Below, piece after piece: positions 8,203 through 27,657 of a stretch of DNA of 64,000 nucleotides. The notes beneath the pieces are model-generated. The model saw nothing but the letters and a program-made list of their open reading frames with translations. It had not been told where the DNA came from and did no database searches. Every line of letters starts with the position of its first letter. The first letter of the stretch is position 1. This stretch comes from Candidatus Thorarchaeota archaeon (lineage in GTDB: Archaea; Asgardarchaeota; Thorarchaeia; Thorarchaeales; Thorarchaeaceae). The position numbers and the translations under genes were made by a program. The DNA lies in the NCBI GenBank assembly GCA_029855935.1, contig JAGSHN010000004.1, forward strand, positions 1-64,000. Direction: 5' to 3'.

Positions 8203-9912
8203 TCAACTCATCATTCTCAGCAGGTCGTCGACAGACCGGGTGTTGATAACGTCCTCTGCAGTGAGCCAGCCACGCCGGGCCTGCGCAACACCAAACCGGA
8301 GGTTCTCCAGCTCCTGAGTCCGATGCGAGTCTGTGTTGATGGCGATGAGCAGGCCCATCTCCTTGGCAAGACGAAGATTTGCATCGTTCAGGTCGAGACG
8401 AACGGGATGAGAGTTCAACTCCATTATCACCTGATTCTCACGGGCCGCCTCGAAGACTCTCTCAAGGTCAATCTCGATTCTAGGTCGACGTAGAAGCATC
8501 CGTCCGGTCGGATGACCAAGAATGTCGACGTGCCTGTTCCCAAGAGCTGTGACCACCCGTTCGGTCATCGTTGCGCGGTCGTCCTTCAGGTGGGAGTGCA
8601 CGGACGCCACCACAACATCCAGCTGAGAGAGGACGCTGTCATCAAGATCGAGCTCCCCACTGGGAAGAATGTCCACCTCGATTCCCTTCAGTATCCGGAC
8701 CCTCCAGCGTCCCGAGGCGTTCAGCTCATCTATCCGGTCCATCTGGCGGAGAAGTCCCCCCTCGTCAAGCCCGCCAGCAATAGTCAGGCTCTTGGAGTGG
8801 TCGGAGATGCAGAGATACTCGTGCCCCAGAACCTCTGCCGCTGTGACCATCTCCTCAAGCGTGTTGGCACCATCTGACTGATTGGTATGAACGTGAAGGT
8901 CACCCTTGATGTCGTTGGGGGAGATGAGAATAGGAAGCTCGTTCTTTTGAGCCGCCTCAATCTCACCACGATCCTCCCTGAGCTCCGGGGGGATGAACTG
9001 CAGGCCCAGCGTAGAATAGATGTCCTGCTCCTCTCGCCCGGCGACCATTCGGTCCTTGTCAAAGAGGCCATACTCATTTAGCCGTAGACCCTTCCGCATT
9101 GCAATTGACCTGAGGTGAACATTGTGGTCCTTGCTGCCAGTGAAGTACTGCAGTCCAGCACCATAGCTCTCTTCAGCCAGCAGTCTGAGGTCTACCTGAG
9201 TCCCTCCACGAAGCCGGACTGACGTCTTTGTATCGCCGTGGACAAGCACATCAGCGGTCTCTGGACTGTTCATCAAAGCTCCTGCCACAGCCTCGCCATC
9301 ATCAGCACACACCAGTATGTCGATGTCACCAATTGTCTCCTTCCGGCGCCTGACTGATCCCGCGATGTCGATTCGTTTCACTGGGACCTGCGACCTTATG
9401 TGTTCCACAAGGCTCTCAGCGAGGGCCAGAGCGTCAGAGAGGAGCACACGTGACATTCCTGCACGGACCAGCGCTATTCCCTCAGATATCTGTTCAATCG
9501 TCTTGGTCCCAATTCCGCGTAGACCCTTGAGGCGACCCTCACGGATGGCGGCCTCGAGAGAGTCTAGGTCGGTCACCCCCAGCGACTCGTAGAGCGTCTT
9601 GATTGTCTTGGGCCCCACACCGGGAATCGCCTCCAACTCGGCCACTTTGACTGGAATCTTCTCACGTAGTGCCTCCAGTTTCTCGATGCGGCCCGTGCGG
9701 AGGTATTCCTCAATCTTCTTGGCAATCGACTTTCCAACGCCCGGAATGTCTGTGAGCTCACCCCGTGCGGCTATGGACTCAATGTCCTCTCCAAGTGACG
9801 ACACCGCCCGCGCGGCCCGGGCATATGCCCGCGGCTTGAATCTGTCCTTGCCCTCGACCTCTAGGAGTATGCTCATCTCGTGGAGCAGCTGGGCAAGTTC
9901 TCTGTTCTTCAT
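8203..9912 (-). CDS. polX: PolX family DNA polymerase / PHP domain
   Basis: N-terminal HhH 'LEAIPGVGPKTIKTLYE', 'IGDIDILV', C-terminal PHP 'GDLHVHTNQSDGANTLEEM'. Start set at MKNRELAQ. Confidence 0.9.
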   Translation of the reverse strand: MKNRELAQLLHEMSILLEVEGKDRFKPRAYARAARAVSSLGEDIESIAARGELTDIPGVGKSIAKKIEEYLRTGRIEKLEALREKIPVKVAELEAIPGVGPKTIKTLYESLGVTDLDSLEAAIREGRLKGLRGIGTKTIEQISEGIALVRAGMSRVLLSDALALAESLVEHIRSQVPVKRIDIAGSVRRRKETIGDIDILVCADDGEAVAGALMNSPETADVLVHGDTKTSVRLRGGTQVDLRLLAEESYGAGLQYFTGSKDHNVHLRSIAMRKGLRLNEYGLFDKDRMVAGREEQDIYSTLGLQFIPPELREDRGEIEAAQKNELPILISPNDIKGDLHVHTNQSDGANTLEEMVTAAEVLGHEYLCISDHSKSLTIAGGLDEGGLLRQMDRIDELNASGRWRVRILKGIEVDILPSGELDLDDSVLSQLDVVVASVHSHLKDDRATMTERVVTALGNRHVDILGHPTGRMLLRRPRIEIDLERVFEAARENQVIMELNSHPVRLDLNDANLRLAKEMGLLIAINTDSHRTQELENLRFGVAQARRGWLTAEDVINTRSVDDLLRMMS

Positions 9913-15448: not shown

Positions 15449-15660
15449 GTCCGCTGATGCGAAAAGGGGCATGAGCAGATTAAAATGTGTGTTGGGCCGA
15501 AGGTGGGAGCGTTAGACAGTTGGGTTGTTCAAATACATCAGGCCCGACTATCACTTGAACGATACGGATAATGTGATGGAGAATTGCTGTCCAAAACGAC
15601 GGCCCGACGAACAGATGAAAGAACAGAAAAGGAAATGGAGTGCTGACTGGAGGAGCAGAA

Positions 15661-16413
15661 ATGTTTCACGCGACTCTCGATAGTACCAAGACGTGGAAGC
15701 AGATTGTGGATGCGCTGGCAACATTGCTCACGGAGGTTGTCTTCATCATCGATGATAAGGGGATATCGCTGTGCCAGCTTGACTCGTCAAAGGCTGCGAT
15801 GATCGACCTCAGCCTCCCCGCCGGAGTCTTTCAGGAGTATCAGTGTTCCCAGGAGCACGTGGTATGTCTCGACACGGACGAGCTCGTGAAGGTGAGCAAG
15901 AGGATGGCCGGGGACGATCACATAGAGTTCAGCCTTGACGACGATGCACAGAGATTCGAGATAAAGCTGATTGGACAGGCCGAGAGACGGTTCAGTTTTA
16001 TGCTTCTCACGCCTCCAGAGGAACGGCGGTCAAGCAAGCCCATGCCATACGATGTACGTGCAGAGATGTTTACCGATGCGTTCAAGCAGGCCATCAAGGA
16101 CATCAGTGTCATATCTAACCACGTGAGGATTCGCGCCGAGGAGGGCACCCTTGAGTTCAGAGGCGAGGGAAACCTTGGAGAGGCGCATGTCACTCTCAGG
16201 GTTGGAGAAGAGTCGCCACTGTACAGTCTTGAGATTGGCAGACCAGCCACGGCGATGTACTCTATGAGCTATCTTGCAAATATCTCGAAGGCGATGTCAA
16301 GCGACAGCCTCGTGTTACAGTTTGCGACCGACAAGCCGATTCAGATGGAGTTCGGAGTGGCCGAGGGAGGAACTATCAAGTTCATCCTTGCGCCGCGTAT
16401 TGAGAGAAGATAG
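15661..16413 (+). CDS. pcn: PCNA sliding clamp
   Basis: 'MFHATLDSTKTWKQIVDALATLLTEVVFIIDDKGISLCQLDSSKAAMIDL', C-terminal 'KPIQMEFGVAEGGTIKFILAPRIE'. Confidence 0.95.
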   Translation: MFHATLDSTKTWKQIVDALATLLTEVVFIIDDKGISLCQLDSSKAAMIDLSLPAGVFQEYQCSQEHVVCLDTDELVKVSKRMAGDDHIEFSLDDDAQRFEIKLIGQAERRFSFMLLTPPEERRSSKPMPYDVRAEMFTDAFKQAIKDISVISNHVRIRAEEGTLEFRGEGNLGEAHVTLRVGEESPLYSLEIGRPATAMYSMSYLANISKAMSSDSLVLQFATDKPIQMEFGVAEGGTIKFILAPRIERR

Positions 16414-16549
16414 ACGAATGGCAGGACGCACAACAAGACACATTGAAGGCGAGCCATCAGACTGACGTTTCTGCCAGCGCCATCCATACTCTGACCATCT
16501 GTCCGCAGAGGTAGACAAAGACCGCCCGCAGTAGCAGGAGCCCAAGGCG

Positions 16550-17932
16550 ATGCCCAACCGAGATGTCACAAAGAGGCAGAAGTTCCTACAACTGATGTTC
16601 CACCAGTACTACAAAGAGAACGCGAACACGGTGGACGCTCCCGATCGACTGAACATGCGAGAGTTCGCCTTTGAAACCTGGGAGTACACATGGAGATGTA
16701 CTCAGCGTACCGAAACCGATGAGAATGGACACTCCAGACGGGTGGGCTGCGGCTCAAGGGGGACATCGTTGCAGCGGGTGAGCACCTGCCCCAAGTGCGG
16801 GGCCCGTGGTGTCACCTCTACGAACTGGTTGCGCCATCTCGGATTCCGTACGGCCGATGCCCTCCGGAGAGAACTTGCATCACGTGCCCCCCACAGTGTG
16901 TATCACTCAGCGGCGTTCTACAGAGTGCCCGTCGCACGAAGTATGTACGAGAAGCAGTGGACAGGAGCTGAACTCGTCTTTGACATCGACGCCGACCATC
17001 TAGATTCGCCCTGCACTCACGACCACGACGGCTGGATCTGCGCGAATCCCGAGTGTCAGAGAACGGGTAGAGGAGATCCCCCGGAGATGGGCTGTCCGTC
17101 CTGCGGGCGAATGGACTTCATCACACGAAAATGGCTCTGTGACAGATGCATGGACGATGCAAAACGGCACACTCTAAAGGTCTTTGATGAGTTTCTCGTC
17201 AACGACTTTGGCATTGATAGCGACAGTCTGCAGCTGAACTACAGTGGTCATAGAGGGTATCATATACGCGTACGTGACCCCAGAGCCTTTGCAATCGACT
17301 CCACGGGCCGGGTTGAGATTGCGCAGGCTATTGTCGGAGCAGGTCTGGACGGTGCGCGGGTGATAGGAACCCTTGCGGGCATCCCAAGGGTGCCTCCAAG
17401 GAACGCGGCAGGATGGGGAGGCAGGCTTGCAGATGCGATTCTGGACTTTGTCAGGGATATCGACTCATATGAGGGCAGTCAGAGGTGGATGGCAAGGCTC
17501 AAGCAGCACAGGGAGAGGATTGTGAGAGAGTTGCTCAAAGAACCCCCAAACCTCTGGCGGGGGGCGGGAATTGGCGTGAAGTCCTGGCGGGAGATTGCGG
17601 AGATTGCAGCTACACGATATGGTGGGAAGATTGACATACCGGTCACACATGATGTGCATAGAGTGATAAGGTTGATAGGCAGCATCCACGGCAAGACCGG
17701 ATTCGTGGTCGCAGAACTCAACAGAGAGTCGATTGAGGCGTTCGATCCCTTCGGAAATGCCCTTGCCTTTGACGACAGTGTCCTACGCGTCCACACTCTG
17801 GGTGGTCTACTCGAGGTGCCCAGGTTTAGGATTGGTGACGAGATATATGGGCCGTTTGGCGATGAGGTGGTCGACCTGCCAATGAATGCTGCAATGTTCC
17901 TATTGTGCAAGGGGGCGGCCGTCCTTGAGTGA
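16550..17932 (+). CDS. priS: DNA primase small subunit
   Basis: 'FDIDADH', 'LQLNYSGHRGYHIRV', 'DVHRVIRLIGSIHGKTGF'. Confidence 0.93.
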   Translation: MPNRDVTKRQKFLQLMFHQYYKENANTVDAPDRLNMREFAFETWEYTWRCTQRTETDENGHSRRVGCGSRGTSLQRVSTCPKCGARGVTSTNWLRHLGFRTADALRRELASRAPHSVYHSAAFYRVPVARSMYEKQWTGAELVFDIDADHLDSPCTHDHDGWICANPECQRTGRGDPPEMGCPSCGRMDFITRKWLCDRCMDDAKRHTLKVFDEFLVNDFGIDSDSLQLNYSGHRGYHIRVRDPRAFAIDSTGRVEIAQAIVGAGLDGARVIGTLAGIPRVPPRNAAGWGGRLADAILDFVRDIDSYEGSQRWMARLKQHRERIVRELLKEPPNLWRGAGIGVKSWREIAEIAATRYGGKIDIPVTHDVHRVIRLIGSIHGKTGFVVAELNRESIEAFDPFGNALAFDDSVLRVHTLGGLLEVPRFRIGDEIYGPFGDEVVDLPMNAAMFLLCKGAAVLE

Positions 17933-17936
17933 TGAG

Positions 17937-18542
17937 ATGCGCTACGATAGTATTGCGGAGATCTGGGATAAGGAGGTACACTCCGAGGAGCTGCTCGACC
18001 TCGATGACCTCACTGTGGGCAGAATGGCAGAATACCTCCGACAGGTACGCATTGCACTGACCGAGGTGCCCGCGGAGGACACCATTCAGGAGGACCTGTA
18101 CAGACAGGAGATTGAGAACCTAGAGTTCATGATTCGGGACCTATTGACGCTGCGTAGGGACAAGATACTGATGGCGGTGATGGAGGGCAGAGACGTCAAC
18201 GCCGGGATGCTCTTGACGGAGGAGGAGTTCTATGGCAGACTGAAACGTGCCTTTCAGAGCCATACTAAGCTTGTTGAGGACATTCTGATCGGCAGCCACA
18301 TAGCGCAGCCAGAGACGACCGTTGTGGTGGGAGGTGACACGAGCGAGGAAACAGTGGAGCATATTCTGGTCAGGTTCACCAAGACCATTGACACACCGTT
18401 CGTCGGGATTGATGAGAGAGTATATGGCCCGTTCGAGAGAGAGGATGTTGCAGTGATTCCCGCCTTGAATGCACAGCCTTGGTTACGCGATGGCACCGTC
18501 ATCAGGATAGTGCCAGAACGCAGTGAGTCTGGGACGGAGTGA
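17937..18542 (+). CDS. GINS complex subunit (Gins51/15 type)
   Basis: Helical A domain then C-terminal 'YGPFEREDVAVIPALNAQPWLRDGTVIRI'. Confidence 0.8.
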   Translation: MRYDSIAEIWDKEVHSEELLDLDDLTVGRMAEYLRQVRIALTEVPAEDTIQEDLYRQEIENLEFMIRDLLTLRRDKILMAVMEGRDVNAGMLLTEEEFYGRLKRAFQSHTKLVEDILIGSHIAQPETTVVVGGDTSEETVEHILVRFTKTIDTPFVGIDERVYGPFEREDVAVIPALNAQPWLRDGTVIRIVPERSESGTE

Positions 18543-18865
18543 GCATGATGAAAGATGAACAGGTAGTGGAGGAGCTTGTGAAACTGTTGCGGGAGATCAA
18601 CGAGGCTCAGAAGAGCCTCAATAGCGAGTATCAGCGGCTTGAAGTGGCCATCTCTGGAGTGCTCCGTCTCATCGGCGACCAGGCACAAGTGATAAGGGGG
18701 CTTGGCGGGGACAAAGACCAGCTGAGCAGATACGTCATACGAGAGCTGGCGCGTCTTCGCGATGAGACCGAGAAACGGATGACATCACTGGCCAAGAGTG
18801 TCGTGGCCATCAGAGAGAGTGTTACAAAAACGATAAGTGACGGGCGGGACGAGGAGGGAGTATGA
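18539..18865 (+). CDS. coiled-coil protein, unknown
   Basis: 108 aa, overlaps the GINS stop by 4 nt; heptad-like sequence. Confidence 0.55.
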   Translation: MSMMKDEQVVEELVKLLREINEAQKSLNSEYQRLEVAISGVLRLIGDQAQVIRGLGGDKDQLSRYVIRELARLRDETEKRMTSLAKSVVAIRESVTKTISDGRDEEGV

Positions 18866-19182: not shown

Positions 19183-19731
19183 GTGAAACAGATGACCGAA
19201 ACGGACGGCTCTGAGAGGCCACCGGCCACACTGATTGAGCCCATCGACATGTCGACACTGGATGCCAGTTTTCGGAGAGAGATTCAGAGCATGCCGGATG
19301 GCGATGAACTCTCTGCGTGCTTCGCATGCACGACGTGCACCGCAGCGTGTCCAATAGCGAACCAGTGGGAGTACAAACCTCATCAGCTGATCAGAATGAT
19401 CATCCTGGGCATGCGGGACGAGGTGCTCTCATCCAAGGAGATCTGGGAGTGTCTGACCTGTTTTCAGTGTCAGGAGCGTTGCCCTCAGAAAGTCCGGGTC
19501 ACCGACATCATCTTCGACTGTAAGAATCTCGCTGCCGAGGAGGGGAAGATTCCAGATGCCATCAGAAATCTTGCAAGAGAGCTGCTTGAGAAGGGCCAGC
19601 TATACGTGATAACAGCCGACTGGGAACGCGAGGATCTAGATCTCGAGCCGGAGTTGCCGGGGCTCTCCACTGAGGAGTTCAAGACCATCCTCAGAAACAC
19701 TCGAACAGGTAGAATTGTGGGCGGTGAGTGA
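19183..19731 (+). CDS. hdrC: heterodisulfide reductase subunit C-like
   Basis: 'CFACTTCTAACPIA' and 'CLTCFQCQERCPQKV'. Confidence 0.88.
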   Translation: MKQMTETDGSERPPATLIEPIDMSTLDASFRREIQSMPDGDELSACFACTTCTAACPIANQWEYKPHQLIRMIILGMRDEVLSSKEIWECLTCFQCQERCPQKVRVTDIIFDCKNLAAEEGKIPDAIRNLARELLEKGQLYVITADWEREDLDLEPELPGLSTEEFKTILRNTRTGRIVGGE

Positions 19732-19734
19732 CCA

Positions 19735-20601
19735 ATGCCAACATACAATCTGTATATGGGCTGCAGTGTTCCTGCAAACTATCCGAACTACGAAGCGGCG
19801 CTGCTCAAAGTGGCAAAGGCCCTCGATGTCGAATTGAACTACATGGAAGGTGTGGGCTGCTGTGGTAGTCCGAACCTCAGAGCCTTCGACTACTACGGAT
19901 GGCTCGTCGTCAATGCCAGAACTCTTGCAATAGGCGAACAGAATGGGCATGACATAGTCACACCCTGCAACGGGTGCTTTGCCAGTCTCAAGGACGCTCT
20001 CTACCATCTCAGGCATGACAAGAAGGATATGAAGCGTGTGAATGAGGAGCTGAAGAAATTCGATCTGGAACTCAGGGGGACCGTGAGAGTCAGGCACGTG
20101 GTGGAGGCACTGTATACCGACGTTGGTGTCGATGCCATAAGAGAGAAGGTCACAAGGCCTCTGGATGGCGTTGGGATTGCGATTCACGCAGGGTGCCATC
20201 TGATGAGGCCTGCGGATGTCACCGAGATGAGTATCGAGATATTGGAAGAGATGCTTCGAGCAACAGGCGCCACTGTCGTGCAGTATCCGCTGTGGAAGCA
20301 GTGCTGTGGTGCAACCGTCCTGCCAGTCAACGAGGCGCTGGCCGTCCGTCTGGCCAGGGACAAACTCCGGTCGATAAAGGACGCTGGTGCCGAGTTCATC
20401 ATGGTGGTCTGTCCAGCCTGCGGCAACCAGCTCGACCTTCAGCAGTTCGGGATAAAGGACACGTATGGCGAGGGGTATGACCTGCCAGTGCTGTTCTATC
20501 CTCAGATTCTTGCGCTGGCAATGGGCATGGATGAGGAGGAAGTTGGCCTCAGTATGAACAGAGTGCCAGCAGACCCGATTCTCGACCATCTGACTGAGTG
20601 A
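19735..20601 (+). CDS. hdrB: heterodisulfide reductase subunit B-like
   Basis: Two CCG-type modules: 'MGCS..GCCGS..PCNGC' and 'HAGC..QCCGA..CPACG'. Confidence 0.88.
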   Translation: MPTYNLYMGCSVPANYPNYEAALLKVAKALDVELNYMEGVGCCGSPNLRAFDYYGWLVVNARTLAIGEQNGHDIVTPCNGCFASLKDALYHLRHDKKDMKRVNEELKKFDLELRGTVRVRHVVEALYTDVGVDAIREKVTRPLDGVGIAIHAGCHLMRPADVTEMSIEILEEMLRATGATVVQYPLWKQCCGATVLPVNEALAVRLARDKLRSIKDAGAEFIMVVCPACGNQLDLQQFGIKDTYGEGYDLPVLFYPQILALAMGMDEEEVGLSMNRVPADPILDHLTE

Positions 20602-21869
20602 ATGAGGTGACGGTGATATTGTCCGACAAGGTCCTCATCATTGGCGGTGGCGTGGCTGGCCTTACTGCTGCCATTGAGCTGGCCGACTCGGGAGTGAAGA
20701 CTGTGCTGGTGGAGCGCCAACACACTGTAGGGGGTAACGCACTTGACCTGTACAAGGCGTTTCCGACCGATGACTGCTTCTACTGCTTTGAGGCCAGTCG
20801 CTTTCGGCCGGGGATTCGAAAGTGCTTCTATCGAAGTGCACTCCTGGACCACCCGAATCTTGAGCTGCGGACAAACACGACCGTAGAGGCAGTTGCAGGC
20901 AGTCCAGGCAACTTCGAGGTGACGCTGATGGTGGGACCGCAGTATGTCGATCCGATGAGATGCATCATGTGTGGCCTCTGTCAGAAGCTGTCCAGTGCCT
21001 TTGTTCTCATCTCGCCACAATGTCAGCCTCAGGCGGTAGTCTACGTCCCAGACCAAGCGGATGACAATGTGAAGGAGGCTGTCGAGAAGTGCCCCACGAA
21101 GGCCATCAACCTCGAGGCCCAGCCAACAGAGGAGGTCATCAGGGCATCCGACATTGTGGTGGCCACAGGCTACCACGAGATGAAGCCTGTCGGCATGGAG
21201 GAGTATCACTACGAGGAGCTTCCCGATGTGGTGACGCAGCTCGAACTTGCACGGATGCTAGACCCGAATGGCGAGACCAGCGGCCAACTGGTACGTCCAT
21301 CCGATGGTGGTCCTGTGAAACACGTGATGATGGTGCAGTGCGTTGGCAGCCGTGATGAGAACTACTATCCCTACTGTTCCAAGATCTGTTGCGTCTTTGC
21401 GTTGAAACATGCGGACATCATAGCACAAGAGCGAGAGGGCGTCCAAGTTTCTGTCGTCTATATGGACATCCGAACCTATGACAGGCATGAGCGATACTAC
21501 CGCAAGTCGAGAAGGGCGGGTGTCAACTTCATCCGAGGCCGTGTTCAGACGGTCTCCAAGGCCAAGGACGGGGGACTGGAGGTCATTGTCTACGACTCGC
21601 TCCTCGACAGATATCTCAAGTTCAGAGTAGATCTCTTCGTGCTCTCCACGGCCCTTGAGCCGTCAGCAGAGAGCAACGAAATGGCACAGATGCTGGGAAT
21701 CAGGACCTCGAATGGATTCGTTGCCTCACTCGACCCGACTTCGGGCGACGAAGTTATCGTCGGTGACCACGTGTACGCATGCGGCACCGCCCTCGGCCCC
21801 GCGGAGGTACCAGAGTCTGTGACCCAAGCAAGGGCAGTGGCCTTGAAGATACTGCAGGGCAGGAAGTGA
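20598..21869 (+). CDS. HdrA-like FAD protein (short form)
   Basis: 'VLIIGGGVAGLTAAIELADSG', 'CIMCGLCQ', 'VMMVQCVGSRDENYYPYCSKICCVFALKHA'; lacks the HdrA N-terminal domain. Confidence 0.82.
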   Translation: MNEVTVILSDKVLIIGGGVAGLTAAIELADSGVKTVLVERQHTVGGNALDLYKAFPTDDCFYCFEASRFRPGIRKCFYRSALLDHPNLELRTNTTVEAVAGSPGNFEVTLMVGPQYVDPMRCIMCGLCQKLSSAFVLISPQCQPQAVVYVPDQADDNVKEAVEKCPTKAINLEAQPTEEVIRASDIVVATGYHEMKPVGMEEYHYEELPDVVTQLELARMLDPNGETSGQLVRPSDGGPVKHVMMVQCVGSRDENYYPYCSKICCVFALKHADIIAQEREGVQVSVVYMDIRTYDRHERYYRKSRRAGVNFIRGRVQTVSKAKDGGLEVIVYDSLLDRYLKFRVDLFVLSTALEPSAESNEMAQMLGIRTSNGFVASLDPTSGDEVIVGDHVYACGTALGPAEVPESVTQARAVALKILQGRK

Positions 21870-21875
21870 TCACAG

Positions 21876-24047
21876 ATGGACAGCAAGGTTGCCGTGGTAC
21901 TATGCACCTGCGGAGGAACACTACAACTGGACTACGAGTCCCTGCGTCAGGAGATTGCGAAGGAGGAGGGTGTGACGGGTGTCACTGTGATGGACACCCT
22001 CTGCCAGAGCGAGGGTCTAGAAGCACTCTCTCAGATTCTCAGTGATGTAGATGGAAGAGTAGTCATTGCCGCCTGTACCAGTCAGAAGCTCCAACCCCGG
22101 GTGGACAACTCACTCGGGCAGGGCAGAGGGCTCAACACCTCGCTGACCCACTACGTCAACATACGCGAACACTGTGCGTGGGTACATCCAGACATCGAGG
22201 AGGCCACGAAGAAGGCCCTTGATATGATCAGAGGGGCGGTGGCTGCAACCCGTCTTGCTCAGCCCCTGCAGGTCGCATCTAAAGCGGTGGATGCCCATGT
22301 GACTGTCATAGGGGGAGGCATTGCCGGAATTGAGGCTGCACTGAGCCTCTCAAGTCTTGGCTACAAGGTCACCATCTTTGAGGTCACGGACAGGCTAGGC
22401 GGACACATCATCAGTCTGCCTGTGATTGCACCCACTGGAAAGTCTGGAGCAGAACTGCTCAGCGGGCGCTTGGAGGCGATAGAGAAGGATGACAACATCA
22501 CTGTGATGACGAACACAAGGGTCAAATTTGTGGAGGGCGAGATGGGGAATTTCGAGGTGCACTATCTACAGGGAGAGAGCGAGGAGGAGAACGTACTCAA
22601 GACCTCTGCCGTGGTCGTCGCGACCGGGTTTAGAGAGTTCAAGCCCACAGAGATGGAGGAGTATCAGTATGGACGCAATCCCGATGTCATCACGCAGTTC
22701 GAACTGTCCACTATGCTGACTGAGGGGCGCCTGCAGCGTCCATCAGATGGAGGGCCTGTGAAAGAGGTCGTCATGGTGCAGTGCGTCGGGAGCAGATCTG
22801 AGGACTACAAGCGGGACTGTAGTAAGCTTTGTTGCACATTCGCAATAGACAATGCGCTTGAACTCATCAAGAACGACCCCGACATTCATGTCCGTATCAT
22901 CTATATGGACATCCGTGTCCCCTTTGAGAATGAGCTGATATACAAAGAGTCGAGAGAGAAGGGTGTGGACTACATCAGGGGGCGGGTCAGCATGGTGTGG
23001 AGAGAGAACGACAAGACCCGCGTCCGGATATACGACTCCCTTCTTAACCAGTATTTTGAGACATCTCCTGACCTCGTGGTCCTCTCCTCGGCCGTGTTAC
23101 CTCCCGATGGACTGTACGAGCTCTCCGAGAGCCTTGGATTTGCCATAGAGTACGACGGCCACATCAAGGAGCTCTATGGAAAGCTCCGTCGCAATGAAAC
23201 AAGAAGACGTGGGGTCGTCGCCGTGGGGGCAGTCACAAGGCCTCAGTTTGTGAGTGAGGCCATAGTGGAGGCACAGGCCGGAGCCCTGATGATTCACAAC
23301 GAGTTGCAGGGTGGCTCTGTGGAGAAGATCGCAAGAGGAGCACTGCTTGATGTCGACGAGTGTGTTGGCTGCAGTCTATGCGCCCAGCAGTGTCCTCGTG
23401 GAGTGCCGCTCATGATCGAACAGACTGAGGCGGAGGAGAGCCAGACCGACTCTGACAAGTTTCTATTCAAGGCATCAATCGACATACTGAACTGCCATGC
23501 CTGCGGCGTCTGCCAGAGCCTCTGTCCGACTGGCGCCACGCAACTAAACTTCCTGACGAACGAGCAGCTCTGGGACCAGATAGCGGCCACACTTCGAGAT
23601 GCAGGACCAGAGTATCCGATCACGCTGTGCTTCCACTGTGAGGAATGCTCTGTTTCCACCATAGACATCGTGGGGACACGAAGACTACAATACCCAGCCA
23701 ATGTCCGACTGATCCCTGTTCCCTGCGCCGGGCGAGTCAGTATGGTGGACATACTAAAGGCGTTTGAACACGGGGCGAGCACAGTGATGATTGCCGCCTG
23801 CGAAACCGACCGTTGTCACATTGGAGGAACAGGCAATGAGATTGCCCAGATTCACGTCGATGTCGCAAGAGAGATTCTCAATGCGATTGGGTGGGACGGC
23901 CGTCGGGTCGACATGTTTAGGATGTTCAGCGCCGAGCCGGAGAGGTTCATCGTGGCCGTGAAGGAGATGACCGAGCGGGCTGAGAGCCTCGGACCAACAC
24001 CCGTACACAAGGGTACTGCGGGTAGGTGGATGGAGGTGAGTGAGTGA
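21876..24047 (+). CDS. hdrA: HdrA with C-terminal MvhD-like domain
   Basis: 'VVLCTCGGTL' N-domain, 'VIGGGIAGIEAALSLSSLGYKV', two ferredoxin motifs 'CVGCSLCAQQCP' and 'CHACGVCQSLCP', then MvhD-like 'CFHCEECSVSTIDIVG...CAGRVSMVDILKAFEHGASTVMIAACETDRCHIGGTGN'. Confidence 0.87.
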   Translation: MDSKVAVVLCTCGGTLQLDYESLRQEIAKEEGVTGVTVMDTLCQSEGLEALSQILSDVDGRVVIAACTSQKLQPRVDNSLGQGRGLNTSLTHYVNIREHCAWVHPDIEEATKKALDMIRGAVAATRLAQPLQVASKAVDAHVTVIGGGIAGIEAALSLSSLGYKVTIFEVTDRLGGHIISLPVIAPTGKSGAELLSGRLEAIEKDDNITVMTNTRVKFVEGEMGNFEVHYLQGESEEENVLKTSAVVVATGFREFKPTEMEEYQYGRNPDVITQFELSTMLTEGRLQRPSDGGPVKEVVMVQCVGSRSEDYKRDCSKLCCTFAIDNALELIKNDPDIHVRIIYMDIRVPFENELIYKESREKGVDYIRGRVSMVWRENDKTRVRIYDSLLNQYFETSPDLVVLSSAVLPPDGLYELSESLGFAIEYDGHIKELYGKLRRNETRRRGVVAVGAVTRPQFVSEAIVEAQAGALMIHNELQGGSVEKIARGALLDVDECVGCSLCAQQCPRGVPLMIEQTEAEESQTDSDKFLFKASIDILNCHACGVCQSLCPTGATQLNFLTNEQLWDQIAATLRDAGPEYPITLCFHCEECSVSTIDIVGTRRLQYPANVRLIPVPCAGRVSMVDILKAFEHGASTVMIAACETDRCHIGGTGNEIAQIHVDVAREILNAIGWDGRRVDMFRMFSAEPERFIVAVKEMTERAESLGPTPVHKGTAGRWMEVSE

Positions 24048-26320
24048 GCGGCACTGTCGAACAGGAGCGGGAGATCCCACCGAAGAGGCAACGAATGCTC
24101 GATATGTTGATGGTGCTTGGCGGCCTCAAGGAGGAGCAGGCAATCCCTCTGAGCAGGGTGAAGGAGGAGATAGAGGCACTCAAAGCGGGCCTGACCCCGC
24201 TGATCTCGGAGATTCTCAGCTTTCCGGACAAGTACAACAAGGCATTTCTCGAGACCGCAGAGAGAATAAGGCTGGCCGAGCAGCTGACAGACCACGGCAT
24301 TGTCACCGAGGCCATCACCAGACTCGAGGAGGCCCTGTCCATAAGGAGGACAGATGCACTGGAGGGGCTGCTCAATCTCCTCCGGTCCACGCAACAGAAG
24401 GACGAGACCACAGCGGAGGAACGACCCGAGAGACCGAGGATGGACATCGGGCAGGTGATAGAGCCTTTATCAGGATTCATCGAGACGGTTGAGGACGCCA
24501 TCGCAGGATACGAAACAGAGAGAAACAAGCAGGCGCAGGAGGCGCTGGACCGGCTGCACGGTCTGACTGAGGAATTCAGAAACTTGGTCAGACTAGCCAG
24601 CGAGAACCCAGAAGAGGCACTCGATGGCCTCCGGAAGATGGGGACCATCACACGGTATGGTCCATTCCTCCGCAATGCTGGACAGATTAGACGAGCCCTG
24701 AAGGAGGGTAGAGTGACCCCGGCGCGGTTTGCTGAACTTGTGCAGACCAACATGCTGGTTGAGATGATCCGTGGCCTCATCATGTTCGTCCTGAACAACG
24801 TGGGCTCGAAGACCGTGATGCAGCTTGCTGAGATTCTTGACCTCGAGCCAGAGAGAGTCCAGAATGCCATCATCACGATGATTCAGAGGGGGGAGATCAA
24901 GATGGTCGGTGTCGAGGAGGGCGCGCCTGTGTACGCTCGCGTGCTCGGCACAGTGCCAAACACTCTTCTCGTTCTCAAGAGGATCTCGCAACAGATGAGG
25001 AGCCTCCTCAGGAATGCAGAGGGGTCCGTCAGAGACACTCTCGAAGACGCCGTCGGGAGACTCACCTCGTGTCTGGAGAAACTTCAGCGGCTGGGTCAGT
25101 ACGACGAGGCGGCCATAGCCGAGGCAGTCAATGAGATGAGAGAGATTGCCGACAGGGCGACCGAGGCTGCCCTGAGCACGGAGAGTTCGGCCGACACGGA
25201 GGAACTGCGCCACCTGATATCAGCAGGACTCGAGGCATTCGCCCGGTTCAGACTGAGAATCACACTGGAGAAGGGACCCAACCTCGTTGAGGGGAAGAAT
25301 GTCTATGGCGAGAGCCTGGACCCCGAGGTCTATCGCAGAATGATGGACACCTATCTTGAGAACGAGATAGAACGTGGATTCATACTTGTCCTAATCCGCG
25401 AGCTCGGTGCCATGAGCGTGAAGGACATCTCAGAGAGGACAAAGATACCCCCGGACAGGGTGCTTCAGCACGTTCTCAGAATGAAGCGGGATGAACTGCT
25501 GACGATTGCAGGTGAAGAGCACGGCTATGTTCTCTACGATGTCCCACGTACACCCAACGAGGCGGAGGTGGCCATCCAGACCATCACGGCACTCATTCAG
25601 GATCTTGCCCCTGCAATGCGCGATCTTGAGCAACTCGTGGCCGAGCTGACCGCCAAGGACATCGGCCGCCTAGTCAACACCCTTGAGGCCTTCTCCAAGG
25701 CCCGGGACAAGATGGCGAAAATAACGTTGGGCGGCAGTGCTATTGCCTCAGACACCATCGAGGCAGTCAGGGAGAGTATTAGGTCCGCGCTGGCAATGGC
25801 CTACCGCACGAGAGCAAGAATCCCGAGCACGCGGCCAAAGGTCACCATTGATGACCTGATAGATGTCGACGTCCCAACGGTGATGGACGAGTATCGCGAC
25901 ATGATGGGCTATGCGCCTCTGCTGGGATTCGGGACCATCGACTGGGACCAGTCAAAGTGTCTCGGCTGCAGGTCCTGTGAACTGTCTTGTCCCGAGGACG
26001 CGATATTCCTGAGGCCAGTGATTGATCTCCCAGAGTTCTTCGAGTTCTCAGAGGAGGTAATTGACAGGTTCCCATCCGTGAGAGCTATGTTCTACAGGAC
26101 GCTGAGGGGTCTGGCGGTCAAGCGGCCGACCAGCAACATCGTCCTTGAGCACGACGCTCCTGGGTTTGGACACGTGGAGGTGGACCTCTGGCTCTGCGTT
26201 GCCTGTCGAACATGCGTCCGGAGATGTCCGGGGCCTGAGGGTGGTGCATTGGAACTCGACCTCAAGTGGAGCCTGCCCGAGGTCATTCGCCACCTTGTGA
26301 CTGAGCAGACATCTGAATGA
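24044..26320 (+). CDS. 758-aa helical protein with two winged-helix-like segments and a C-terminal dicluster ferredoxin domain
   Basis: Overlaps hdrA by 4 nt. Similar segments 'MIRGLIMFVLNNVGSKTVMQLAEILDLEPERVQNAIITMIQRGEIKMVG' and 'IERGFILVLIRELGAMSVKDISERTKIPPDRVLQHVLRMKRDELLTIAG'; then 'CLGCRSCELSCP' and 'CVACRTCVRRCP'. Confidence 0.85.
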   Translation: MSGTVEQEREIPPKRQRMLDMLMVLGGLKEEQAIPLSRVKEEIEALKAGLTPLISEILSFPDKYNKAFLETAERIRLAEQLTDHGIVTEAITRLEEALSIRRTDALEGLLNLLRSTQQKDETTAEERPERPRMDIGQVIEPLSGFIETVEDAIAGYETERNKQAQEALDRLHGLTEEFRNLVRLASENPEEALDGLRKMGTITRYGPFLRNAGQIRRALKEGRVTPARFAELVQTNMLVEMIRGLIMFVLNNVGSKTVMQLAEILDLEPERVQNAIITMIQRGEIKMVGVEEGAPVYARVLGTVPNTLLVLKRISQQMRSLLRNAEGSVRDTLEDAVGRLTSCLEKLQRLGQYDEAAIAEAVNEMREIADRATEAALSTESSADTEELRHLISAGLEAFARFRLRITLEKGPNLVEGKNVYGESLDPEVYRRMMDTYLENEIERGFILVLIRELGAMSVKDISERTKIPPDRVLQHVLRMKRDELLTIAGEEHGYVLYDVPRTPNEAEVAIQTITALIQDLAPAMRDLEQLVAELTAKDIGRLVNTLEAFSKARDKMAKITLGGSAIASDTIEAVRESIRSALAMAYRTRARIPSTRPKVTIDDLIDVDVPTVMDEYRDMMGYAPLLGFGTIDWDQSKCLGCRSCELSCPEDAIFLRPVIDLPEFFEFSEEVIDRFPSVRAMFYRTLRGLAVKRPTSNIVLEHDAPGFGHVEVDLWLCVACRTCVRRCPGPEGGALELDLKWSLPEVIRHLVTEQTSE

Positions 26321-26454
26321 GAGCTTGCGTGTCCAATGTCAGACAGGGGAGCCAGTTGACCAGTCTACCGTCAGACAAGAATCTCTCCAAGGGGAGCTGT
26401 AGGAGCATAGTCATTCGAGTATGTTATTAAGCCCAGTCGCCATTGGGAGAATCT

Positions 26455-27657
26455 ATGATAGACTTCTCGCTCACTGAGGCACAGCTGGAACTCCAGCAGA
26501 GAGCACGGAGGTTCGCGCAGGAGTATATGATACCCTACGCGCACTACTACGATAGGACCGGTGAGTTCCCACGACCTATAATTCGCAAGGCGTGGGAGAT
26601 GGGTCTGATGAATCTCTCGATTCCCAGGGAGCACGGAGGACCCGGCCTTGGCGTCCTTGAGCAGTGTATCGTCGTGGAGGAGATGGCTGCAGGCTGCGCT
26701 GGGATGACGACAAGCATATACGTGAACAGCCTTGGAGCCGAACCAATCCTGATAGCGGGTAACACTGAGCAGAAAGAGAAGTATCTCAGACCACTGACAG
26801 AGGATCTGAAGTTCATCTCGTTTGCCTGTTCCGAGCCGGGGATGGGCAGTGATGTTGCAGGAATCCAGACTCGTGTGAAGAAGGAGGGGTCACACTATGT
26901 CATCAACGGCAGCAAGTTCTGGATCACTAACGCTCCGCACGCAGACTATTTCGCGGTCTTCGCCACCCTCGACCCCAGTCTCAGACATAAGGGGCTGTGC
27001 GCGTTCATCGTGGAGGCGGATTGGCCAGGTGTGAAGGTTGGCAGACCCGTTGAGAAGATGGGCCATCGCGCATCAACAACATCGTCAGTGATGTTCAGGG
27101 ATGTTAAGGTCCCCATAGATAACCTCCTTGGCCAAGAGGGTGAGGGATTCAGGATTGCAATGCAGACATTCGCCCTGACAAGACCCGCGATTGCAGCGTT
27201 TGCCACAGGGCTGGCACGTGCAGCAATGGAGTACGCACGGGAGTATGTCAACAAACGCAAGGCGTTCGGACAGAAACTGAGGGATTTTCAGGCCATTCAG
27301 TTCAAGCTTGCTGAGATGTATGTCAAGATAGAGGCATCACGACTGCTGTATATGAAGGCCTCTTGGGAGGCGGATCGCAGCGGAAGGTCGACAGTGCTAG
27401 CCAGTATCGCGAAGGCGTTTGCAACAGATGCGGCAATGTGGGTCGCAAGCGAGGCAGTCCAGATTCACGGTGGCTACGGATACATCGACCAGTACCCAAT
27501 CGAGAAGTTGTTCCGTGATGCCAAGCTGTATCAGATATATGAGGGGACCAGCGAGATCCAGCGCCTCATTCTCGGAAGGCACGTGCTGGATGCGTACGAA
27601 CCAGCGATGAAGAAGCCACCAAGATGGTACAACGAGAAACCACCGGACTTTGACTGA
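26455..27657 (+). CDS. acyl-CoA dehydrogenase
   Basis: 'MIDFSLTEAQLELQQRARRFAQEYM', 'CSEPGMGSDVAGIQT', 'YEGTSEIQRLILGR'. Confidence 0.93.
   Translation: MIDFSLTEAQLELQQRARRFAQEYMIPYAHYYDRTGEFPRPIIRKAWEMGLMNLSIPREHGGPGLGVLEQCIVVEEMAAGCAGMTTSIYVNSLGAEPILIAGNTEQKEKYLRPLTEDLKFISFACSEPGMGSDVAGIQTRVKKEGSHYVINGSKFWITNAPHADYFAVFATLDPSLRHKGLCAFIVEADWPGVKVGRPVEKMGHRASTTSSVMFRDVKVPIDNLLGQEGEGFRIAMQTFALTRPAIAAFATGLARAAMEYAREYVNKRKAFGQKLRDFQAIQFKLAEMYVKIEASRLLYMKASWEADRSGRSTVLASIAKAFATDAAMWVASEAVQIHGGYGYIDQYPIEKLFRDAKLYQIYEGTSEIQRLILGRHVLDAYEPAMKKPPRWYNEKPPDFD

Follow-up and report, generated by a model that had tools for sequence, protein, structure and literature searches.

What does a large protein with two winged helices and a ferredoxin domain do among the genes of an Hdr enzyme? 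The question is raised by the window, a stretch of 64,000 nucleotides from a Candidatus Thorarchaeota archaeon, in which such a protein of 758 aa is encoded. A preliminary description of the locus had offered two readings, a structural or electron-transfer subunit of an Hdr complex, or a redox-sensing regulator physically tied to it.

The genes of the locus follow each other in the order hdrC, hdrB, hdrA1, hdrA2, the 758-aa gene and an acyl-CoA dehydrogenase gene (Table 1), and thus homologues of hdrA, hdrB and hdrC are all present in the operon of the 758-aa gene. The coordinates given earlier for the latter proved correct, including the overlap of its start with the hdrA2 stop by 4 nt. The hdrB-like gene also matches the NCBIfam HdrB model TIGR03288 (3.3e-78, under the curated cut-off). 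Of the two HdrA homologues, hdrA1 covers HdrA positions 133-556 of its NCBIfam model and matches HdrA chains of the PDB at 3e-72, while hdrA2 matches such chains at 4e-88 and bears a Pfam FlpD match (2.2e-33) at residues 584-706. A short HdrA together with a long, FlpD-ended HdrA, accompanied by HdrB and HdrC, is also the make-up of the QmoAB/HdrBC-type complexes of sulfate reducers. The window's hdrA1 may be called QmoA-like and its hdrA2 QmoB-like, this being a likeness of layout only. To our knowledge, no wHTH-ferredoxin subunit occurs in complexes of this type.

The solved Mvh-HdrABC, Fdh-Hdr and Elp-Hdr complexes (PDB 5odc, 7bkb, 8rvu) have HdrA and FlpD/MvhD homologues in common with the window's operon, but their electron input is provided by hydrogenase, formate dehydrogenase or Elp, and no wHTH chain of a solved Hdr complex was among the matches found. 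In the open-access literature, we found no account joining QmoB, HdrA and Asgard archaea, and a search for MvhD and HdrA with helix-turn-helix yielded only an unrelated regulator.

The electron-bifurcating HdrA of M. thermolithotrophicus has the residues E356/K409 (PMC12054007). In our alignment, read by eye, position 356 is A in HdrA1 and S in HdrA2, and position 409 is K in HdrA1 and D in HdrA2; the pair of E356 and K409 is complete in neither HdrA of the window operon, and bifurcation by the window's Hdr complex is therefore doubtful.

Genes taken for PCNA and two primase subunits, plus a 108-aa gene, precede the hdr operon (window 15640-18865). The PCNA and primase genes keep this place in almost every Thorarchaeia locus inspected; replication genes next to an Hdr operon are an unusual arrangement, though a conserved one. 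Elsewhere in the genome, an HdrA match (G000:C8:69110-70825) and a FlpD match (G000:C24:54957-55367) contain in-frame TGA codons, compatible with selenocysteine.

Table 1. Features of the hdr locus, with positions in the window
Feature	Position	Strand	Basis or remark
hdrC-like gene, 182 aa, two [4Fe-4S] motifs	19183..19731	+	NCBIfam HdrC TIGR03290 1.5e-29, under curated cut-off
hdrB-like gene, 288 aa, two CCG domains	19735..20601	+	Pfam CCG 2.3e-30
hdrA1, short HdrA, 423 aa, FAD domain and inserted ferredoxin region	20598..21869	+	NCBIfam NF040770
hdrA2, 723 aa, C-terminal FlpD/MvhD, without inserted ferredoxin domain	21876..24047	+	
wHTH-wHTH-ferredoxin protein, 758 aa, GTG start	24044..26320	+	
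GltD insertion site in orthologues, TRYG^PFL	24659..24664	+	no insert in the window's version
wHTH1, residues ~217-298	24692..24937	+	HMM of small hdr-linked wHTH proteins, i-E 6e-14
wHTH2, residues ~385-500	25196..25543	+	HMM of small hdr-linked wHTH proteins, i-E 7e-20
Two-cluster ferredoxin domain, residues 626-754	25919..26305	+	Pfam Fer4 families
First [4Fe-4S] motif, C639-C642-C645-C649	25958..25993	+	invariant in 34 sequences
Second [4Fe-4S] motif, C718-C721-C724-C728	26195..26230	+	invariant in 34 sequences
Acyl-CoA dehydrogenase gene	26443..27657	+	Pfam; synteny, conserved 3' neighbour in Thorarchaeia only

Architecture of the 758-aa protein

Two internally similar winged helices had been suspected in this protein, and profile-profile comparison of wHTH1 with wHTH2 bears this out (98% probability, E 2e-13, 21% identity), with control helical stretches matching neither of them. 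Compared in the same way with the small wHTH proteins encoded in hdr clusters elsewhere among Asgard archaea, wHTH1 and wHTH2 reached 98.4% and 99.4%, respectively. In the single-chain AlphaFold2 model (mean pLDDT 77.5, pTM 0.38), helix-helix-hairpin winged helices are seen at residues 226-299 and 427-499, with the long helical stretches expected between them and a C-terminal cluster region. At a pTM of 0.38 the single domains are usable, but their arrangement in the model is not fixed. Residues 1-205 are mostly helical, and helices are found also between the wHTHs and before the ferredoxin domain. Foldseek related the model only weakly (TM about 0.1) to multi-wHTH proteins such as RNA polymerase III RPC62, and this was set aside as a mere resemblance of fold type.

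When the PDB was searched with the entire protein (phmmer and profile), most matches were of the ferredoxin type and fell on its C-terminus. The two CxxCxxCxxxCP motifs noticed there earlier proved to be strictly kept, all eight cluster cysteines being invariant in 34 homologues with identity down to 21%. Two conserved CxxCxxCxxxC(P) motifs together with Fer4 profile matches mark the region as a two-cluster [4Fe-4S] ferredoxin, and profile comparison (99.9%, E 6e-34) shows its homology to a ferredoxin of 160 aa that exists as a protein of its own, linked to hdrA.

The protein has the wHTH fold in common with ArsR/MarR regulators; it differs from them in that it stays under the Pfam cut-offs for these families (MarR_2, 25.5 against 27 bits; HTH_5, 21.2 against 22 bits) and stands in the gene context of enzyme subunits instead of that of a regulator.

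Synteny and a GltD-type insertion

All data are MAGs, and the family searches cover Asgard genomes. Orthologues of the 758-aa protein are present in 46 of 47 Thorarchaeia genomes, the sole genome without a match being 52% complete. Where upstream sequence is available, hdrA2 lies directly 5' of the orthologue in 41 of 42 Thorarchaeia genomes. In the exception, G019, a 523-aa reverse-strand ORF, possibly a mobile element, intervenes between hdrA2 and the 758-aa gene (L036:6587-8158 (-)). In another genome, G024, hdrA2 is represented upstream by its FlpD end alone (L039 around 9262-9684), in a locus containing 400 N and possibly misassembled. Full-length homologues with 21-23% identity occur in four other Asgard genomes, in the order hdrA1-hdrA2-WH-hdrC-hdrB, and the hdr linkage of the full-length protein is conserved across Asgard lineages. 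A search of genome contigs with the 758-aa protein gave matches in Thorarchaeota only. Among the Asgard genomes searched, no full-length homologues away from hdr genes were found, and no named family covers the wHTH-wHTH-ferredoxin architecture; on both points the preliminary description stands.

The acyl-CoA dehydrogenase gene is found 3' in all but one Thorarchaeia genome with a continuing contig. This speaks for a narrower form of the subunit reading, namely that the 758-aa protein links Hdr to the acyl-CoA dehydrogenase encoded next to it, which would open an ETF-independent path from acyl-CoA. We consider such coupling unlikely, as the dehydrogenase gene is missing in G015 and is not downstream in the four distant Asgard genomes, ETF genes are present elsewhere in the genome, and about 120 nt separate the two genes.

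In six Thorarchaeia genomes, the orthologue contains a domain of ~471 aa inserted at TRYG^PFL, which is a GltD-type NAD(P)H dehydrogenase (PRK12771, 3.6e-145). Five of these genomes belong to one genus (G007, G031, G033, G226, G227), and their orthologues have lost wHTH1; the sixth, G025, belongs to another genus and keeps both wHTHs. The inserted domains of the two genera share 59-62% identity and are 51-55% identical to a GltD-type domain in an HdrA of the window's own genome. This 928-aa HdrA with the inserted domain (contig 24, L152:10350-13136 (-)) has a type III HdrA layout and clusters with FlpD, an 81-aa wHTH gene and hydrogenase genes. In type III HdrA, a GltD domain is inserted in HdrA and has been proposed to react with NAD(P)H (PMC12054007). 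The six orthologues likewise have a GltD domain inserted in an Hdr protein, but the host of the insert is the wHTH-ferredoxin protein instead of HdrA.

The wHTH domains in other Asgard hdr clusters

With an HMM built from 14 small wHTH proteins, 145 Asgard genomes of 85% completeness or more were searched, and 95 of them gave matches. Both wHTHs of the 758-aa protein belong to this Asgard family, which is apparently undescribed and recurs in the hdr clusters of many lineages; the 758-aa gene is a large two-copy member of it. The wHTH part of small members and FlpD fusions has no Pfam or NCBIfam family of its own; individual members score above the cut-off of a general HTH model (HTH_5 in L083, HTH_24 in L171). 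The wHTH loci were taken from search hits regardless of their neighbours. Setting aside proteins of the 758-aa type leaves 61 sampled members, of which 57 have an hdr or flpD gene no more than 300 bp away. Without the FlpD fusions, in which adjacency is built in, the figure is 32 of 36; neither is a count of independent cases, because many of the loci come from the same genera.

The make-up of the length classes was checked on examples. There are nine short wHTH proteins, six of them with hydrogenase genes within 300 bp, and 19 proteins of 112-200 aa. The 25 proteins of 200-340 aa are, where examined, FlpD-wHTH fusions (Pfam FlpD 2e-52), and the eight of 400-520 aa are, where examined, wHTH-ferredoxin-FrhB fusions (FrhB_C 3e-49). 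In a FlpD-wHTH model, the FlpD half matches MvhD from solved Hdr complexes with a target TM of 0.84-0.87. The ferredoxin half of the 758-aa protein also occurs in the hdrA-linked form of 160 aa and as a fusion with FlpD. In the window's genome, the 81-aa wHTH gene of contig 24 is situated between flpD and mvhG-mvhA, with overlapping ends.

Proteins of the wHTH-ferredoxin-FrhB type, about 480 aa long, were seen in other Asgard hdr clusters (L168:5995-7428, L171:5998-7416, L174:6206-7648), in L168 and L171 directly after flpD. Two proteins of 377 aa are encoded 3' of an hdr cluster at L059:12645-14986 (-); judged by eye, they combine ferredoxin motifs with what looks like an HTH-type N-terminus.

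Candidate role at the electron-input face

Of the two roles proposed at the outset, that of a structural or electron-transfer subunit is well supported, by conserved synteny, by FlpD/FrhB fusions and by the NAD(P)H-dehydrogenase-type insertion in orthologues, while little beyond the fold speaks for a redox-sensing regulator. We find it probable that the 758-aa protein is an accessory structural and electron-relay subunit of a QmoAB-like HdrAABC complex, with the wHTHs serving as docking modules. This complex would be soluble and would consist of the QmoA/QmoB-like HdrA pair, HdrB and HdrC. The C-terminal two-cluster ferredoxin may serve as an electron relay linking HdrA2/FlpD to a redox partner outside the complex, and the tandem winged helices, presumably a fused pair of the small Asgard Hdr-associated wHTH protein, may act as protein-docking modules at the FlpD/electron-input face. 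Membership in the complex, the direction and partner of electron transfer and the docking role of the wHTHs are what we infer from the observed architecture, homology, synteny and fusions.

Recognisable donor-type genes stand in other Hdr clusters of the genome: contig 24 has FlpD-wHTH-MvhG-MvhA, and another hdrA has an FrhB-type gene nearby. A search of the window's hdr operon for such a gene found none, and the 758-aa protein would therefore be the natural place of electron input. In the six relatives, the orthologue has taken up a candidate donor module, the GltD-type NAD(P)H dehydrogenase domain; for the protein of the window, the redox partner would be another polypeptide.

A winged-helix fold by itself does not tell a regulator from a subunit, and the fusions and synteny are compatible also with a regulator sitting on the Hdr complex. 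We favour the subunit because the wHTHs are acidic (mean net charge -2.3 for wHTH1 and -0.8 for wHTH2, with about -25 for the entire protein), the wHTH family is fused to the enzyme subunits FlpD and FrhB and encoded between enzyme subunits, and wHTH1 is gone in five GltD-bearing orthologues of one genus. It thus seems quite improbable that the protein is a redox-sensing transcription regulator tied to the Hdr complex, whose clusters would report the redox state and whose paired winged helices would bind operator DNA, even though the fold is near to ArsR/MarR/Z-alpha domains and wHTH2 has a mildly basic recognition helix (mean +2.35), which might touch nucleic acid. A purely structural scaffold with the ferredoxin clusters out of turnover, which the large helical content of the protein might suggest, is hardly credible given eight cysteines that are all invariant at 21% identity.

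We would give even chances to a broader form of the subunit reading, in which the dedicated Asgard wHTH family provides interchangeable docking adaptors between FlpD and electron-input modules (hydrogenase, F420H2 or NAD(P)H), a DNA-binding fold having become a connector for electron transfer. The 758-aa protein would then be a large two-copy form of such an adaptor, a platform which received an inserted donor domain in some lineages.

Hdr complexes hold a central place in anaerobic energy metabolism. Asgard archaea carry many hdrA copies (PMC11237513). In these relatives of eukaryotes, the electron donors of the hdrA copies are mostly unknown, and a conserved input-face adaptor domain would help to assign a donor to each Hdr complex, would give a marker for annotation and would put a transcription-factor fold to an unusual new use within an enzyme of electron transfer. 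The GltD-bearing orthologues render the electron-input reading directly testable.
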